A stretch of DNA of 55,200 nt from assembly GCA_902563575.1 (NCBI GenBank), contig CACEXV010000005.1:1-55200 (forward strand), given 5' to 3'. The notes under the pieces are model-generated. The model saw only the letters and a list, made by a program, of their open reading frames with translations. It did not search any database and had not been told where the DNA came from. The DNA comes from an uncultured Pelagibacteraceae bacterium (lineage in GTDB: Bacteria > Pseudomonadota > Alphaproteobacteria > Pelagibacterales > Pelagibacteraceae). The first letter of the stretch is position 1. Each line of letters starts with the position of its first letter. Positions 31,509 through 50,080 of this stretch are shown here, piece after piece. The position numbers were made by a program, and so were the translations under genes.

Positions 31509-31928
31509 ATGAGTATAATTGAGGTCAAGTGTAAAGAAAAAGGTGTAAGGCTCACCGATCAAAGAAAGGTTATTGCAAAAGTACTTTCTGAGTCAAAAGA
31601 GGTGTATGGTTCAAAAGATCATCCAGATGTTGACGAATTACACAAGCGAGTGACAATAATAGACGAAAAAATTAGTATAGCGACAGTCTATAGAACAGTT
31701 AAACTTTTTGAGGAAGCTGGAATACTAGTCAAACATGATTTTAAAGCAGGTAAAGCAAGATACGAAATTAATGATGATCATAATCATTTGATCGATATTA
31801 ACAGTGGGGAAATAATTGAATTTGTAGACAAAGATATTGAAGAACTACAAAAAAAAATCGCAAAAAAACTTGGCTATAACTTAGTAGATCATAAACTTGA
31901 ACTTTATGGTTCAAAATTAAAAAAATAA
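31509..31928 (+). CDS. fur: Fur-family metal-responsive regulator (Fur/Mur type)
   Basis: A 139-residue Fur-family repressor. The winged helix has GVRLTDQRKVIAKVL and ISIATVYRTVKLFEEAGILVKHDF; the metal-binding dimer domain has NDDHNHLIDINSGEIIEF and VDHKLELYG. No CxxC zinc motif is present, as in alphaproteobacterial Fur/Mur. In many relatives this copy (tsaB-rimI-fur-miaB) senses manganese or iron, which cannot be settled from sequence. A second Fur-family protein, Irr-like, lies at 46546. miaB begins 1 base after its stop. Confidence 0.93.
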   Translation: MSIIEVKCKEKGVRLTDQRKVIAKVLSESKEVYGSKDHPDVDELHKRVTIIDEKISIATVYRTVKLFEEAGILVKHDFKAGKARYEINDDHNHLIDINSGEIIEFVDKDIEELQKKIAKKLGYNLVDHKLELYGSKLKK

Positions 31929-41891: not shown

Positions 41892-43963
41892 TGTTTGAAA
41901 TAAAAAAAGAGGAAATTACAGTTAACGGAAAAAAAATCACATTAGAAACAGGCAAAATCGCGAGACAAGCTGATGGAGCTATTATAGCAACTTGTGGCGA
42001 AACAGTTGTGATTGCTACAGCGGTTGGAGCAAAAAAAGTAGCTGAAGGACAAGACTACTTTCCTTTGTCTGTAAATTACCAGGAAAAATATTATGCCGCT
42101 GGTAAAATACCTGGTGGATATTTTAAAAGAGAGGCTCGACCAACAGAAGCTGAAACTTTAATTTCAAGATTAATAGACAGACCGATAAGACCTCTTTTCC
42201 CTTCAGGGTTTATGAACGAGGTTCAAGTACTTCCCACTGTATTATCTTATGATGGCGAGAACCAACCGGATATTTTAGCTATGATTGCATCATCAGCAGC
42301 ATTAGCAATTTCCGGACTACCATTTCAGGGCCCTATTGCAGCCAGCAGAGTAGGTTTTAACAATCGAAATTACATTCTTAATCCATCACCAAAAGATTTA
42401 GAAAATTCTAGTTTGGACTTAGTGGTAGCTGGGACAAAAGATGCTGTATTAATGGTTGAGTCGGAAGCATCAGGATTATCAGAGAAAGAAATGTTAGATG
42501 CTGTAAAATTCGGACATGAAAGTTTTGTACCAATAATTGGAGCAATTGAAAAACTTGCAAAAAAAGCTGCTAAATCAAAGTGGGAAGTCGAAGTTGCCGA
42601 TAATTCAGCAATAAAGAAAAAAATTAAAGCAAAGTTTGAGAAAGACTTAAGAACTGCCTTTAATGAAATCGACAAAAAGAAAAGATCTTCAGCAATCTCA
42701 GAAATAGACAACCAGTGTAAAGAAATGTTTAAAGATGATGAGTCAATTACAGAAAATCAAGTAATTTCAGAACTGAAATCTTTGGAAAAAGATATTGTAA
42801 GAACAGCGATACTTAAAGATAAAAAAAGGATCGATGGAAGAGGTCTATCAGATGTCAGAAAGATATCTTGTGAGGTAGGCGTTCTACCACGAACACATGG
42901 TTCGGCTTTATTTACTAGAGGTGAAACACAGGCATTAGTTGTTACTACCTTAGGGATGACTGAAGATGAGCAAAGAACTGAAAGTTTAGACGGCATGCAA
43001 AGATCTAACTTTATGCTACATTATAATTTTCCGCCTTTCTCAGTTGGAGAGTGCGGAAGAATTGGAACCGGAAGACGAGAAATTGGACACGGTAAATTAG
43101 CCTGGAGAGCAATTAACTCCTCATTACCTAAGAAAGAAAATTTCCCTTACACTCTTAGAATAGTTTCAGAAATCACAGAGTCAAATGGATCATCCTCAAT
43201 GGCCACTGTTTGTGGAACATCTTTATCGTTGATGGATGCGGGTGTTCCAATCAAAGAACCTGTTGCAGGAATTGCGATGGGCTTAATTAAAGAGGGAGAG
43301 GAATACTCAGTTTTGTCAGATATTTTAGGTGACGAGGATCATCTTGGGGATATGGATTTTAAAGTTGCAGGAACTGAGAACGGGATAACCTCTCTTCAAA
43401 TGGATATAAAAATTACCGGAATTACCTTCGAAATAATGGAAAAAGCACTTGATCAAGCAAAAGATGGAAGAAAGCACATACTTGGTGAAATGAACAAAGC
43501 GATCAAAACTTCTAGAAAAGAATTCTCCAAACACACTCCTAAAATGGAGACATTAAAGGTCGATAAAAAAGATATTGCCACAGTGATTGGGAAGGGCGGT
43601 GCCACTATAAGAGAGATAGTAGAAACCTCTGGAGCAAAGGTCGATGTCAAAGACACTGGTGAGGTCACAGTCGCTGCTCCTGATGAAGAGTCGAGAAATA
43701 AAGCAATTGATTTTATAAAAAGTTTAGTTGCCAAACCTGAAATGGGAAAAATTTATAAGGGTAAAGTAGTAAAAATTATGGAGTTCGGTGCCTTTGTTAA
43801 TTTTTTAGGAAAACAGGATGGGCTTGTTCATATATCTGAACTTGCAGATAAAAGGGTCGCAAAGGTGGGCGACGTTGTAAAGGAAGGTGATGAAGTATCT
43901 GTAAAAGTTGTGGGTTTTGATAGAGGTAAGGTCAAATTATCAATGAAGCAGGCGGGTGCTTAA
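41891..43963 (+). CDS. pnp: Polynucleotide phosphorylase (PNPase)
   Basis: 3'-5' phosphorolytic exoribonuclease and degradosome component. In 690 residues: two RNase PH domains with [27 protein letters not shown] (first) and [16 protein letters not shown]-type [26 protein letters not shown] (second, active site), a KH domain with [17 protein letters not shown] (about 566-582) and an S1 domain ([22 protein letters not shown]). The stop overlaps convergent fabI by 4 bases, with no terminator between them. Confidence 0.98.
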
Positions 43964-44745
43964 GAAATATTCTTAGGATCTGGCATACCAACTTTATTAT
44001 AACCAGCATCAACATAGTGAATTTCACCTGTAACACCTGAAGCCAGATCGCTTAGCAAGTATAAAGCTGAATTACCCACGTCATATATATCTACATTTCT
44101 TTTTAAAAATGAGTGATCCTCATTCCATTTATATAAAAACTTTGCATCTCCGATTGCTGAAGCTGCGAGTGTCTTTATAGGCCCAGCACTTATCGCATTT
44201 ACTCTGATTTTTCTGTGACCAAGATCTCTTGCCAAATATTTGACACTAGCTTCAAGAGCAGATTTACAAACACCCATTACGTTATAGTTTGGTATTGCTT
44301 TTGTTGACTCATAAGTAAGAGTTAACATGCTCCCGCCTTCATTTAATATCTTTGAAGCTTCTTTTGATACTTCTGTAAAGGAAAAACACGAAATTAACAT
44401 ACTTCTTAAGAAATTATCTCGAGTAGTGTTGAGATATTCTCCTGAGAGTTCTGATTTATCTGAAAATGCTACAGCATGAACTACGAAATCAATCTTCCCC
44501 CACTTTGTTTTAATATCTTCAAAAAGCTTAACTATTTCGTCTTTTTTTTCAACATTACAGCTGAAAATAGTTTTAGAATTTAATTTCTCTGCGAGCGGTG
44601 TAACCCTTTTTTTAAGTGCGTCGCCTAAATATGTGAATGCCAACTCTGCACCAGCCTCTGCTAATTTTTTTGAGATTCCCCAAGCAATTGATCTTTCATT
44701 AGCAACACCCATTATCAATCCTTTTTTTCCCTTCATCAAAGTCAT
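43960..44745 (-). CDS. fabI: Enoyl-[acyl-carrier-protein] reductase FabI
   Basis: NADH-dependent last step of each fatty-acid elongation cycle. The 261-residue short-chain dehydrogenase-like protein has [31 protein letters not shown] and the FabI Tyr-x6-Lys motif in [20 protein letters not shown]. It starts at [12 protein letters not shown] at codon 4 is an alternative. It ends the fabA-fabB-fabI operon, 2 bases after fabB, and overlaps pnp by 4 bases. Confidence 0.97.
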
Positions 44746-44747
44746 AA

Positions 44748-45959
44748 TTATACTTTCTCGAAAATTAAAGTCGCGTTAGTTCCCCCAAATCCAAAACTAT
44801 TTGACATTACTGAGTTTAGGCTTACATCTTTTTCAACCTTTGTTACTATAGGATATTTTTTTGCCTCATCATCCATCTCATTAATATTTGCGGAAGCAGC
44901 TATAAAATTATTTTTCATCATTATTAGACAATAAATTGCCTCATGAACTGAAGTTGCTCCAAGTGAGTGACCAGCAAGCGATTTAGTTGAACTTATCTTT
45001 GGTTTATATTCAGTAAATGCCTCTCCAACTGCTTTCAATTCCGTTATGTCTCCTACCGGGGTAGAAGTTCCATGCGTGTTGATATAATCAATTTTATTTT
45101 TTGCTGTGCTTAAGGCCATTTTCATGCATCTAACTGCGCCTTCACCTGAGGGAGCAACCATATCATATCCATCTGAAGTAGCACCATAGCCTGTTAGCTC
45201 TGCATAAATATTTGCACCTCTAGCCTTAGCATGCTCATATTCTTCTAAAACTAAGACACCTCCTCCACCTGCAATTACAAAACCATCACGAGTTTTATCG
45301 TAAGGTCTGGAAGCTTTTTCAGGTGTTTCATTGTACTTAGAAGATAATGCTGTCATTGCATCAAACATCGCTGTCATGGCAAAATGAACTTCATCGCTAC
45401 CACCTGCAAAAATAATCTTTTGTTTTCCTAATTGGATTAGTTCCATGGCGTTACCAATGCAATGCCCACTTGTCGCACAAGCGGAACTTATTGTATAATT
45501 TACACCTTTAATTTTAAAAGGCACAGCCAAAGTCGCAGACGCAGTGCTCGACATAGTTCGCGGAACTACGAAAGGACCCATCCGCTTTGGACTTTTTGCT
45601 CTTGTTTTATCTGCTGCTAGAATTACATTTTCTATTGAAGGGCCACCAGAACCCATAATCATCCCAGTTGAAAAATTACTAACTTCAGTATCTTTCAGAC
45701 CAGAGTCTTTAACAGCTTCATTCATTGCAATAAAGTTGTAAGCAGATCCAGGACCCATAAACCTAATAAATTTTCTATCAACATGATCTTCAAGATTTAT
45801 ATTTGGTTTTCCATGAACATTACTTTTGAGATTATATTCTTTATATTCTTCTGAAAATGTTATCCCTGATTTAGATGTAAGGAGTGACTTATAGACCTCT
45901 TCTTGATTATTACCTAAACACGATACGACTCCAATACCTGTAACAACAACTCGTTTCAT
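44748..45959 (-). CDS. fabB: 3-oxoacyl-[acyl-carrier-protein] synthase I (FabB)
   Basis: Condensing enzyme needed, with FabA, for unsaturated fatty acids. In 403 residues: [14 protein letters not shown] at the N-terminus, catalytic Cys in [19 protein letters not shown] (about 160-175), the two His in [12 protein letters not shown] and [16 protein letters not shown], and [15 protein letters not shown] at the end. Sits between fabA (4-base overlap) and fabI (2-base gap). Confidence 0.97.
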
Positions 45960-46459
45960 GATCTAAAAAGCCCTACCTTTAAATTTTCTGCAGTATAAAT
46001 AATTTTATCTTCAACACTCAATATTCCATTCGCTAAACCCACAGCAGTTCCCTCCTTTTTAAGAACCCTTTTAATATGCACTTCATAAGTTGCTTTTTCA
46101 AACTTTTTCAACACTTCTCCGGTAAACTTCACAGAATTAACACCTAAAGCTCTACCTTTTCCAGGTTCACCTGTCCATCCAAGAAAGAAACCTACAAGCT
46201 GCCACATGGCATCTAATCCTAAACAACCAGGCATAACTGGATCATCTTTAAAATGACAATCAAAGAACCACATACTTTTTTTAATATCAAGTTCAGCCTT
46301 TATTAAACCTTTTTTGAACTCACCTTTATCTTGAAAAATTTCTGTAATCCTATCAAACATTAACATTGGCGGAAGAGGTAATTTTGCATTACCCGCACCA
46401 AATAGTTTACCTTCTGCACAAGATATCAATTCATCGTAATTAAAACTATTTTTTTTCAT
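45956..46459 (-). CDS. fabA: 3-hydroxydecanoyl-[ACP] dehydratase/isomerase FabA
   Basis: Introduces the cis double bond for anaerobic-type unsaturated fatty-acid synthesis. The 167-residue hot-dog-fold protein has the active-site His in [31 protein letters not shown] (about 74-104), also containing the Asp of the FabA dyad. First gene of fabA-fabB-fabI and divergent from irr, as in Rhizobiales. The 86-base gap with irr contains an Irr-box-like inverted repeat, so iron-dependent control is likely. Confidence 0.97.
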
Positions 46460-46508: not shown

Positions 46509-46525
46509 TTTAGAACGATTATAAA
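46509..46525. promoter_or_regulatory. Irr-box (ICE)-like inverted repeat between irr and fabA
   Basis: TTTAGAACGATTATAAA: arms TTTAGAA and TTATAAA match as inverted repeats at 6 of 7 positions around a 3-base centre; outer A/T pairs extend the arms to nine bases. It resembles the iron control element bound by Irr in rhizobia, recalled as TTTAGAA-N3-TTCTAAA. A near-identical copy precedes katG. The position overlaps both predicted start points. Confidence 0.7.
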
Positions 46526-46533
46526 TTATAACA
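46525..46533 (-). promoter_or_regulatory. Extended -10 promoter element of fabA
   Basis: On the minus strand the bases read TGTTATAAT, a complete extended -10 (TGnTATAAT). A start at about 46518 would lie within the Irr-box-like repeat. No convincing -35 is needed for such an element. It points toward fabA-fabB-fabI. Confidence 0.5.
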
Positions 46534-46545
46534 AATATCTAATTT

Positions 46546-46965
46546 ATGCCAAAAACAAACGATATAATTAATACTTTAAGGTCTTCCGGTCTGAGACCCA
46601 CCAAGCAGAGAATAAAAATAGCTGAATATCTATTTAATAGAGAAAGCACGTTTCATTTCAACGTTGAAACTATAGATAAAGAAATCAATTCAAAATCGGG
46701 GGAAGAGAATATTTCATTAGCAACGATATATAACACAGTAAATGCCTTCAAAGATCACGGACATCTTAAAGAGGTAAAATTAAATAATGATAAAACATTT
46801 TATGATACGAATACTAATTTGCATCATCATTTTTATGATAAAGAAGAAAATATTTTGACTGATGTTGCCGCGACAGATGTTCACGTTAGTAAAATCCCGT
46901 CTGCCCCGATAGGAAAAAAAGTTGATGATATCGAAGTAACAATAAACGTCTCAAGAAAAAAATAA
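46546..46965 (+). CDS. irr: Irr-type iron response regulator (Fur family)
   Basis: A 139-residue Fur-family protein distinct from the copy at 31509. The winged helix has SGLRPTKQRIKIAEYLF and ISLATIYNTVNAFKDHGHLKEV; the C-terminal domain has NLHHHFYDKEENILTDV (the HHH motif of Irr) and DIEVTINVSRKK, the usual Irr ending. The N-terminal heme regulatory motif (GCPWHD) found in Bradyrhizobium is absent. Irr senses heme/iron status in Alphaproteobacteria and is commonly encoded divergently from fabA, as here. An Irr-box-like repeat in its own promoter suggests autoregulation. Confidence 0.9.
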   Translation: MPKTNDIINTLRSSGLRPTKQRIKIAEYLFNRESTFHFNVETIDKEINSKSGEENISLATIYNTVNAFKDHGHLKEVKLNNDKTFYDTNTNLHHHFYDKEENILTDVAATDVHVSKIPSAPIGKKVDDIEVTINVSRKK

Positions 46966-47017
46966 CTCTACTTGCAAATCATTATTAGTTAGATCAAACT
47001 ATATCCCTTGCTATCAA

Positions 47018-47034
47018 TTTAGAATCATTATAAA
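47018..47034. promoter_or_regulatory. Irr-box (ICE)-like inverted repeat upstream of katG
   Basis: TTTAGAATCATTATAAA differs from the irr/fabA copy (TTTAGAACGATTATAAA) only in the central two bases, and both continue outward with AA on the left. It lies 12 bases before the katG ATG and covers a TATAAA that could be the katG -10 (TTGCTA, 15 bases upstream of it, as a poor -35). Binding by Irr would be expected to block transcription. Confidence 0.72.
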
Positions 47035-49217: not shown

Positions 49218-49832
49218 ATGGAAACAATTCAAAATATAAAAGAAAAAAATACTAATAATTTTTACAAAGTTCCAGAGATGGCCTTTGACATAAATAAGCT
49301 AAGAGCTGATTTGGAGAACATTTTAAAAAAAAAGAAATTTTGGGATGGTGGAATCACAAACTTTGGAGCTATACCAATGAACCAAATCCCAAATGACTCT
49401 GACTCAATCAAGGGACATAAAAATAGAGGAGTGTATTGGACTATAGCTGATGAAAGTGGCAAAGAAGTTACTAGAGATGTTAATATCGAAGAGGAAAAAT
49501 ATACAGAACTTTTACCAGAATTTAGATCAACCTATTTTGCTGAAGTTTACAAAGTATTAAGTCAAAAATTTAAACTAGGAAGAGTAAGAATACTTTTAAA
49601 ACAGCCTAGATCAACGCTTAGCTGGCACAGAGATCCAGAATGTAGGTTACACATCCCAATTATTACTAACCCAGGATGCAGGATGGTAATTGAAGACGTA
49701 TCAAAGCATTTACCAGCAGATGGATCTGTTTGGATTACAAATAACACAAAATATCACAATTTTTTTAATGGAGGTGAGCAGGCAAGAATACACCTAGTAG
49801 CATGCGTGTTAGAGAGCCCGTTCAAAAAATAA
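49218..49832 (+). CDS. Aspartyl/asparaginyl beta-hydroxylase-like 2OG-Fe(II) oxygenase
   Basis: A 204-residue soluble protein. It carries the iron-binding H-x-D in STLSWHRDPECRLHIPIITNPGCRMVIED (about 132-160), then YHNFFNGGEQARIHLVACVL with the distal His and the Arg that holds 2-oxoglutarate. This matches the Asp/Asn beta-hydroxylase fold. Substrate unknown; bacterial homologues act on proteins, peptides or small amino-acid compounds. It follows katG by 2 bases and shares one base with the DUF2061 gene (TAATG), so the three look cotranscribed. An iron-requiring enzyme under an apparent Irr box fits the regulatory context. Confidence 0.82.
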   Translation: METIQNIKEKNTNNFYKVPEMAFDINKLRADLENILKKKKFWDGGITNFGAIPMNQIPNDSDSIKGHKNRGVYWTIADESGKEVTRDVNIEEEKYTELLPEFRSTYFAEVYKVLSQKFKLGRVRILLKQPRSTLSWHRDPECRLHIPIITNPGCRMVIEDVSKHLPADGSVWITNNTKYHNFFNGGEQARIHLVACVLESPFKK

Positions 49833-50080
49833 TGGTCGAATTTACACAAGGGATATTTAATGCTAGTAAAAATATTTACTTAAACAATAAGGGCTCAATA
49901 CTTAGAACTATTGTTTATACTATCGGACATTTCGCGATCGCAATAACGGTTTTAATGTTAATAGCTGATGTCTCATTTATGGTAGCACTTACGGACGCTA
50001 TTGTAGAGCCTTTAGCAAATGCGGTTTGGTATTTCTTATTAGATAAATTTTGGGCCTCTAGAATAATTGGCCAAAAATAA
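49832..50080 (+). CDS. DUF2061-family small membrane protein
   Basis: An 82-residue protein of unknown function. The chosen start (MVEFTQGIFNASK) overlaps the oxygenase stop as TAATG; a start 30 bases upstream would lie inside that gene. The sequence has SILRTIVYTIGHFAIAITVLMLIADVSFMVALTDAIVEPLANAVWYFLLDKFW, i.e. two hydrophobic helices with the R-x-x-x-Y-x-x-GH and Y-x-x-x-x-x-x-W pattern of DUF2061. It ends 2 bases from the convergent SH3 gene. Third gene of the apparent katG operon. Confidence 0.82.
   Translation: MVEFTQGIFNASKNIYLNNKGSILRTIVYTIGHFAIAITVLMLIADVSFMVALTDAIVEPLANAVWYFLLDKFWASRIIGQK

Follow-up and report, generated by a model that had tools for sequence, protein, structure and literature searches.

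Cells of the SAR11 type, among the ocean's most abundant, carry few regulators, and no settled account of how they control peroxide defence was found in the literature searched. The DNA described here raises that question in a compact form, since its catalase-peroxidase gene (katG) directly follows a gene for a Fur-superfamily regulator of the Irr kind: is katG under the control of Irr, through which operator, and as part of how large a regulon? The 55,200-nucleotide stretch that was analysed (the window) is contig 5 of a 969,940-base Pelagibacteraceae genome (G000) that is 83.7% complete. The closest named relative found is Pelagibacteraceae assembly AH-287-A19, with an Irr that is 98% identical. 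A preliminary description of the window had pointed out twin repeats, one between irr and fabA and one before katG, and had suggested that they define a small local iron regulon.

The features are as follows. Scores out of 14, here and throughout, are counted against TTTAGAAnnnTTCTAAA, the 17-base ICE/Irr-box-type palindrome consensus.

31509-31928, plus strand: second Fur-superfamily gene, Fur-type (8e-26 to PRK09462, under cutoff)
43960-44745: FabI-like enoyl reductase, after fabA and the FabB-type synthase
44748-45959: FabB-type synthase, after fabA
45956-46459, minus strand: fabA, 3-hydroxyacyl-ACP dehydratase/isomerase, divergent from irr (NCBIfam score above cutoff)
46509-46525, no strand: putative operator 1, Irr-box/ICE-like, TTTAGAACGATTATAAA, in the divergent fabA-irr gap (13/14)
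46525-46552, minus strand: promoter-like TTGGCA-16-TATAAT (11/12, TG before the second hexamer), pointing to fabA
46546-46965, plus strand: irr, Fur-superfamily regulator of the Irr kind, 139 aa, no cysteine, HHH at 93-95
47018-47034, no strand: putative operator 2, Irr-box/ICE-like, TTTAGAATCATTATAAA, before katG (13/14), overlapping a -10-like TATAAA
47047-49215, plus strand: katG, catalase-peroxidase, 722 aa (NCBIfam score above cutoff)
49218-49832, plus strand: aspartyl/asparaginyl beta-hydroxylase-like protein (PF05118, Pfam), starting 2 bases past katG
49802-50080, plus strand: DUF2061 small membrane protein (Pfam), overlapping the hydroxylase gene

The order at the locus is fabA (minus strand), operator 1, irr (plus strand), operator 2, katG, hydroxylase and DUF2061. 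The Fur-type gene lies about 15 kb from irr, and match coordinates place it at a similar spacing in many relatives.

Two matching repeats beside irr and katG

Both 17-base repeats are real. Read directly from the sequence, operators 1 and 2 are identical except at positions 8-9, as had been noticed before, and twelve bases separate operator 2 from the katG ATG. The palindrome is imperfect, since the arms TTTAGAA and TTATAAA pair at six of seven positions. Exact matches to TTTAGAANNATTATAAA occur in the 969,940 bases at operators 1 and 2 only. With up to two mismatches, however, TTTAGAANNATTATAAA is matched 42 times forward and 53 times in reverse across the whole genome, no more commonly than its backwards control (48 and 53). 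Because loose matches are as frequent as the control, only close matches are informative, and a matrix was used instead.

To avoid circularity, this matrix was built from the operators of another family (f2), namely six distinct irr-rubrerythrin operators. Over 967,220 of the 969,940 bases, its top match is operator 2 (18.6 bits), followed by operator 1 (17.6 bits) and a third match at 14.6 bits. A matrix made from the relatives' sites, which is partly circular, gives the two window sites 22.8 and 22.0 bits and the third match, inside a gene, 17.2 bits. Across a set of 61 relatives (37 genomes of the genus, the window's own included, and 24 of the sister family), exact matches to TTTAGAANNATTATAAA number 58, against 18 for the backwards control, and 45 of the 58 fall at the irr locus. 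Exact matches at G005 (C1:158756), G027 (C7) and G033 (C6) were set aside.

The position of the repeats relative to promoter-like sequences bears on how they may act. On the katG strand, the operator holds TATAAA in the genus, and in 7 of 26 loci TTGACT stands 16-17 bases before it; the window's own katG promoter has TTGCTA at a spacing of 15 and no clean -35. On the other side, the TATAAT facing fabA overlaps operator 1 by one base. The fabA-irr region holds three promoter-like matches against a shuffle mean of 3.6, and without an excess over shuffles the fabA-side match is weak. Operators that overlap -10-like elements fit a repressor that blocks RNA polymerase.

We favour an explanation in which operators 1 and 2 are bound by the Irr encoded between them. 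Irr would most likely repress by occlusion, as the katG operator covers the -10-like TATAAA, and the irr/fabA operator would act from just before both divergent genes. Once heme, oxidation of its metal/heme site, or the two together had released Irr, the katG-hydroxylase-DUF2061 operon would be made, and in most genomes of the genus irr would be controlled too, perhaps together with fabA. The switch behind irr would normally precede rubrerythrin, a non-heme iron peroxidase, in Alphaproteobacteria, and in this SAR11 lineage the output gene would have been swapped to katG while the operator was kept. For the joint explanation (sites as Irr operators, repression by occlusion, and katG as the replacement of an ancestral rubrerythrin) we estimate a probability of about 0.73 from sequence comparison. 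A circuit of two operators is also small enough for a complete test.

Conservation of the operators and the gene behind irr

Operator 2 is conserved in all 26 irr-katG loci of the genus as TTTAGAAnnATTATAAACT, with 17 of 19 columns invariant between variable flanks when the best-scoring place is taken in each locus. In 26 of the 27 other Irr-bearing genomes of the genus, the identity of Irr is no more than 50-56%, so that the conservation of operator 2 is not simple recency. Additionally, a 13/14 box lies between irr and the following cassette in 28 of 28 genus loci. With both window sites top-ranked and the katG site found in each of the 26 loci, the proposal that irr and katG share an operator stands. 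The irr/fabA side is patchy in comparison. Of 28 genus loci, 19 have the operator 1 site at 13/14 and 23 have it at 12/14 or better; in the other five it is weak or missing, and it was not seen in eight sister-family loci. Similarly, among 39 class-wide regions of 200 bases upstream of irr, eight reach at least 11/14, only two at least 12/14 and none at least 13/14. Conservation of both sites, which had been proposed as a check, holds strongly on the katG side and only in places on the other, and fabA is a candidate target with partial support. The case is better for katG than for fabA.

In 19 genomes of the genus (L103-L121), KatG shares 88-91% identity with the window's although Irr shares only 50-56%, which may point to unusual conservation or a recent spread of katG. 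A separate comparison concerns G030 and G019 (L092/L093), for which the identity per 100 columns is 83-97% along fabA, irr and the operator. Roughly where katG begins, the identity drops to 57-80%, except in a short final block, and the katG genes are of two different lineages behind a near-identical fabA-irr-operator stretch. Here katG has apparently been swapped while the operator in front of it was retained. In a tree of 34 KatG proteins (fragment L129 and duplicate L130 dropped, and the broken katG of G032 outside), the label "beside irr" changes three times, which shuffled labels equalled in 43 of 500 cases and which is not significant.

Irr was found at E < 1e-25 in 49 of the 61 genomes; a looser tally of 58 includes genomes with the second, Fur-type protein alone. 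katG is present in 32 of the 61 and rubrerythrin in 22, none has both, and the seven genomes without either gene lack the fabA-irr locus or have it interrupted by a contig end. This exclusion is mostly a family split, since 30 of the 32 katG genomes belong to the genus and 20 of the 22 rubrerythrin genomes to the sister family, with two exceptions each way. By coordinates, irr is adjoined by katG in 27 of the 49 Irr-bearing genomes, by rubrerythrin in 21 and by neither in one (G050). The box lies between irr and rubrerythrin in all 16 sister-family genomes with this pair among the matches listed, which do not include three more such genomes, G048, G051 and G058. In G002 and G037, the cassette consists of rubrerythrin, a GlpC-like Fe-S protein and DUF3501.

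One operator behind irr thus precedes katG in some genomes and rubrerythrin in others, and two relatives in which no irr was detected have katG paired with oxyR; together these cases make a natural experiment. OxyR is a thiol-sensing regulator. The OxyR of relatives has no match in the window's genome (83.7% complete) at E up to 1e-30 or up to 1e-10, and at E up to 1e-30 OxyR occurs in only two of the 61 relatives, G003 and G023. In both, katG is divergent from the OxyR-like gene and has no box. Neither has a detectable Irr, and at 57% and 87% completeness, respectively, an irr elsewhere is possible. At their fabA loci (L263 1508-2713 and L264 951-2161), a lone hydroxylase gene occupies the place of irr-katG. 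These results agree with the earlier suggestion that katG in the window is not under OxyR.

Several other loci depart from the common arrangement. In G005, irr is absent at the locus and a decayed box, TTTGGAATAATTATAAA, remains between fabA and katG. In G050, katG and irr are on separate contigs, with a box 49 bases upstream of katG (19.7 bits, 12/14) and none behind irr. The katG box of G038 is weak (11/14). No irr was found in G001, G007, G013, G016, G020, G021, G046 and G052; as seven of these eight also lack fabA and the fabA of G007 is cut at a contig end, the missing irr says little, and the locus itself seems to be missing from the assemblies.

Beyond these relatives, 191 alphaproteobacterial genomes contain Irr in 114 cases, katG in 68 and rubrerythrin in 109. 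Rubrerythrin lies directly downstream of irr (same strand, within 1.5 kb) in 81 of the 87 genomes with both, and katG adjoins irr in 5 of the 54 that have irr and katG. Forty stretches were hand-chosen to spread over families, of which 39 were scored for the box (37 of the 81 irr-rubrerythrin gaps and two irr-katG gaps); G192 stayed outside the count because its katG is upstream of irr. Against the consensus, 33 of the 39 gaps behind irr score 11/14 or more, 24 score 12/14 or more and 15 score 13/14 or more, while six have no box of 11/14. For 31 of them, a match as good came up in under 1% of 300 single-base shuffles, and the box is also present in G+C-rich stretches, with 14/14 at 63-64% GC. 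This class-wide box between irr and the next gene, usually rubrerythrin, was not part of the preliminary description, and it is a widespread and probably ancient feature of Alphaproteobacteria. Given the class-wide irr-box-rubrerythrin order, the ancestral output would most simply be rubrerythrin and katG its replacement, which suggests that evolution kept the switch and changed the peroxide-destroying gene under it. As a separate observation, G192 (C52) and G174 (C9) carry katG on the strand of irr and upstream of it, and the order in G174 is katG-irr-rubrerythrin.

A broader reading, which we offer tentatively and consider possible but less likely than not, is that the irr-box-peroxidase unit is the old core job of Irr, a peer of OxyR and PerR across Alphaproteobacteria. 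The peroxidase would be exchangeable (rubrerythrin, katG and, at another site in some SAR11 relatives, peroxiredoxin), and the rhizobial iron/heme regulon would have come later. Mutual exclusion of katG and rubrerythrin was rejected as a general rule, because the two occur together in 38 of the 191 genomes, where chance predicts 38.8. This free co-occurrence slightly weakens both the broader reading and the explanation preferred here.

The Irr protein and alternative readings of the operators

Among nine NCBIfam models, the two that best match the window's protein are IrrA NF045678 (9e-37, 126 bits; cutoff 150) and Irr NF045677 (118.4 bits; cutoff 170), and the next gives 57.8 bits. As it falls below both cutoffs and yet has these as its best two models, the protein is named Irr-like by sequence and Irr by context. 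The His cluster expected of Irr (HHH/HXH, putatively heme-binding) is present at H93-H95, and all 41 aligned proteins share H37, D87, H93-95 and D106. Alignment with 2FE3 (to residue 97), and with 5NL9 for the last Asp, indicates that the PerR-type metal-ligand set His/Asp/His/His/Asp is kept. The structural zinc site of PerR is made of four cysteines, and the window's Irr, which has no cysteine, therefore has no such Cys4 site. It also has no Cys-Pro heme regulatory motif. That motif is absent from Brucella Irr too, according to one report (PMC3413700), and hence does not define the Irr family. In two others, heme-free Irr is reported to bind ICE, and the heme sites of Irr to include a Cys-Pro motif and a His cluster (PMC7762939, PMC11442138).

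These residues bear on the signal, and the strongest alternative is that Irr is a PerR-like peroxide sensor, acting through iron-catalysed His oxidation, so that H2O2 would induce katG directly and heme would play no part. The invariant ligands shared with PerR are consistent with this, as are the genes behind the box, which are katG, rubrerythrin and, in five verified sister genomes, peroxiredoxin. The amount of Irr is also described as falling under oxidants in Dinoroseobacter (D. shibae; PMC8007024). However, the protein lacks cysteine and the Cys4 structural zinc site, and the same His cluster has been reported as the heme-binding region of Irr (PMC11442138). Heme and peroxide sensing are inseparable by sequence, and we regard a purely peroxide-sensing Irr as quite possible, if short of even odds. 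In Ca. P. ubique under iron limitation, Irr protein did not change significantly and rubrerythrin rose 1.57-fold, and the irr transcript tracked stationary phase (PMC2864753). If the rubrerythrin of that organism lies behind irr, these changes would be a poor fit to simple repression by Irr at low iron.

Activation of katG by Irr, instead of repression, is unlikely. Irr is described as an activator or a repressor depending on box position (PMC7762939), but the conserved operator contains the -10-like TATAAA, with TTGACT 16-17 bases before it in 7 of 26 loci. Furthermore, a 5' end mapped inside the Irr box of R. sphaeroides mbfA was read as repression by its authors (PMC3413700).

Slightly less probable again is that Fur, the product of the gene at 31509-31928, reads the site in place of Irr. 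Fur boxes are likewise AT-rich and palindromic, operator 2 has a centre, AATCATTAT, that resembles one, and a Fur-type protein is encoded in the window (NCBIfam 8e-26, under cutoff). Yet the central bases vary and the TTTAGAA/TTATAAA arms are fixed, the box is found class-wide behind irr, and G003, with a Fur-type match and no Irr, has a katG without the site. Finally, chance or a regulator-free promoter motif is very improbable, because, even in a genome of about 70% A+T where loose matches are as frequent as controls, the sites rank first and second with the independent matrix, operator 2 is invariant in 26 of 26 loci, and the class-wide box also occurs in G+C-rich stretches.

Extent of the regulon and known systems

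In the 967,220 bases scanned of the window's genome (83.7% complete), with coding matches set aside, no comparable intergenic site is present beyond operators 1 and 2. The weaker matches are either coding by crude ORF calls or intergenic, the latter near two aminotransferases, a DHDPS-family gene, a glycosyltransferase, a cytidylyltransferase and a 63-aa ORF, and none of the identified neighbours is an iron, heme or Fe-S gene. One further 12/14 match lies at C6:8420. A genome-wide excess is also absent, as column-permuted matrices match about as often at 11-14 bits, and the consensus with up to one mismatch is rarer in this genome than its backwards control (4 versus 9). G246 is a complete genome from the window's family and shares its gene order; over 1,199,990 bases, no intergenic match there scores above the irr-katG site, although a single coding match, inside a redoxin-domain gene, does so when only the sister-family matrix is used. 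The irr/fabA box of G246 is 12/14 and falls outside the best 12 matches, and the identified neighbours of the other matches are not iron genes.

A broad iron regulon of the usual kind thus finds no support in these scans, and the proposed genome scan for sites before iron, heme or Fe-S genes brings out only the window's two sites. Since no comparable intergenic site is found elsewhere, the two-site circuit looks like a dedicated peroxidase switch. If this is correct, Irr, commonly presented as a heme/iron regulator, would be recast as such a switch in SAR11-type cells, and a control element would have been kept while the enzyme under it was exchanged. Two kinds of box were set aside: one that G002, G018 and G020 have at the alanine dehydrogenase 3' end, which looks coding, and one in G038 that overlaps the start codon of a cyclopropane-synthase-like gene.

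The circuit resembles several known systems in part. Regulators of the Fur superfamily beside catalase or catalase-peroxidase genes are known from PerR-katA and FurA-katG; the arrangement is alike, whereas the window has another branch of the superfamily and an ICE-type operator. In G088 (L266 1184-3774), from another alphaproteobacterial family, a PerR-like gene overlaps the katG start. The oxyR-katG pairs of G003 and G023 have the same output gene, but a LysR-type regulator and no ICE box. With the Irr/ICE systems of Bradyrhizobium, Brucella and Rhodobacter, the window shares a Fur-superfamily protein, a His cluster and a palindrome of the TTTAGAAnnnTTCTAAA type; it differs in that its Irr has no Cys-Pro motif, there are two strong operators only, and the output is katG. 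The regulon prediction made by Rodionov et al. in 2006 is said to be the key earlier one, and may already cover Pelagibacter or irr-rubrerythrin.

A further parallel is R. sphaeroides, for which PMC3413700 gives two predicted Irr boxes, at mbfA and ccpA (cytochrome c peroxidase), tied by its authors to oxidative stress. As in the window, the predicted regulon is very small and the boxes are at promoters. The irr mutant is described there as more peroxide resistant, and OxyR runs katE, whose promoter Irr does not bind. In contrast, OxyR was not found in the window's genome, and the box stands before katG itself, beside irr.

Boxes were also seen at other genes in relatives. In G042 (L177 1273-2704), a 13/14 box lies between a divergent peroxiredoxin gene and a metallo-beta-lactamase-fold gene. 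The peroxiredoxin has no match in the window's genome. The same arrangement, at 13/14, is present in five sister-family genomes, and a sixth has the box with neither flanking gene matched in its shorter stretch.

There are hints of an iron link in G148 and G038. G148 (L261 1506-4502) is complete and has no Irr at E up to 1e-15; its katG follows an EfeU/Ftr1-type iron transporter gene, and a perfect palindrome, TTAAGAATAATTCTTAA (12/14), lies upstream of both. In G038 (L169 891-7795), irr-katG-hydroxylase sits inside an ABC transporter gene cluster and not beside fabA, with a box between a transporter permease gene and irr.
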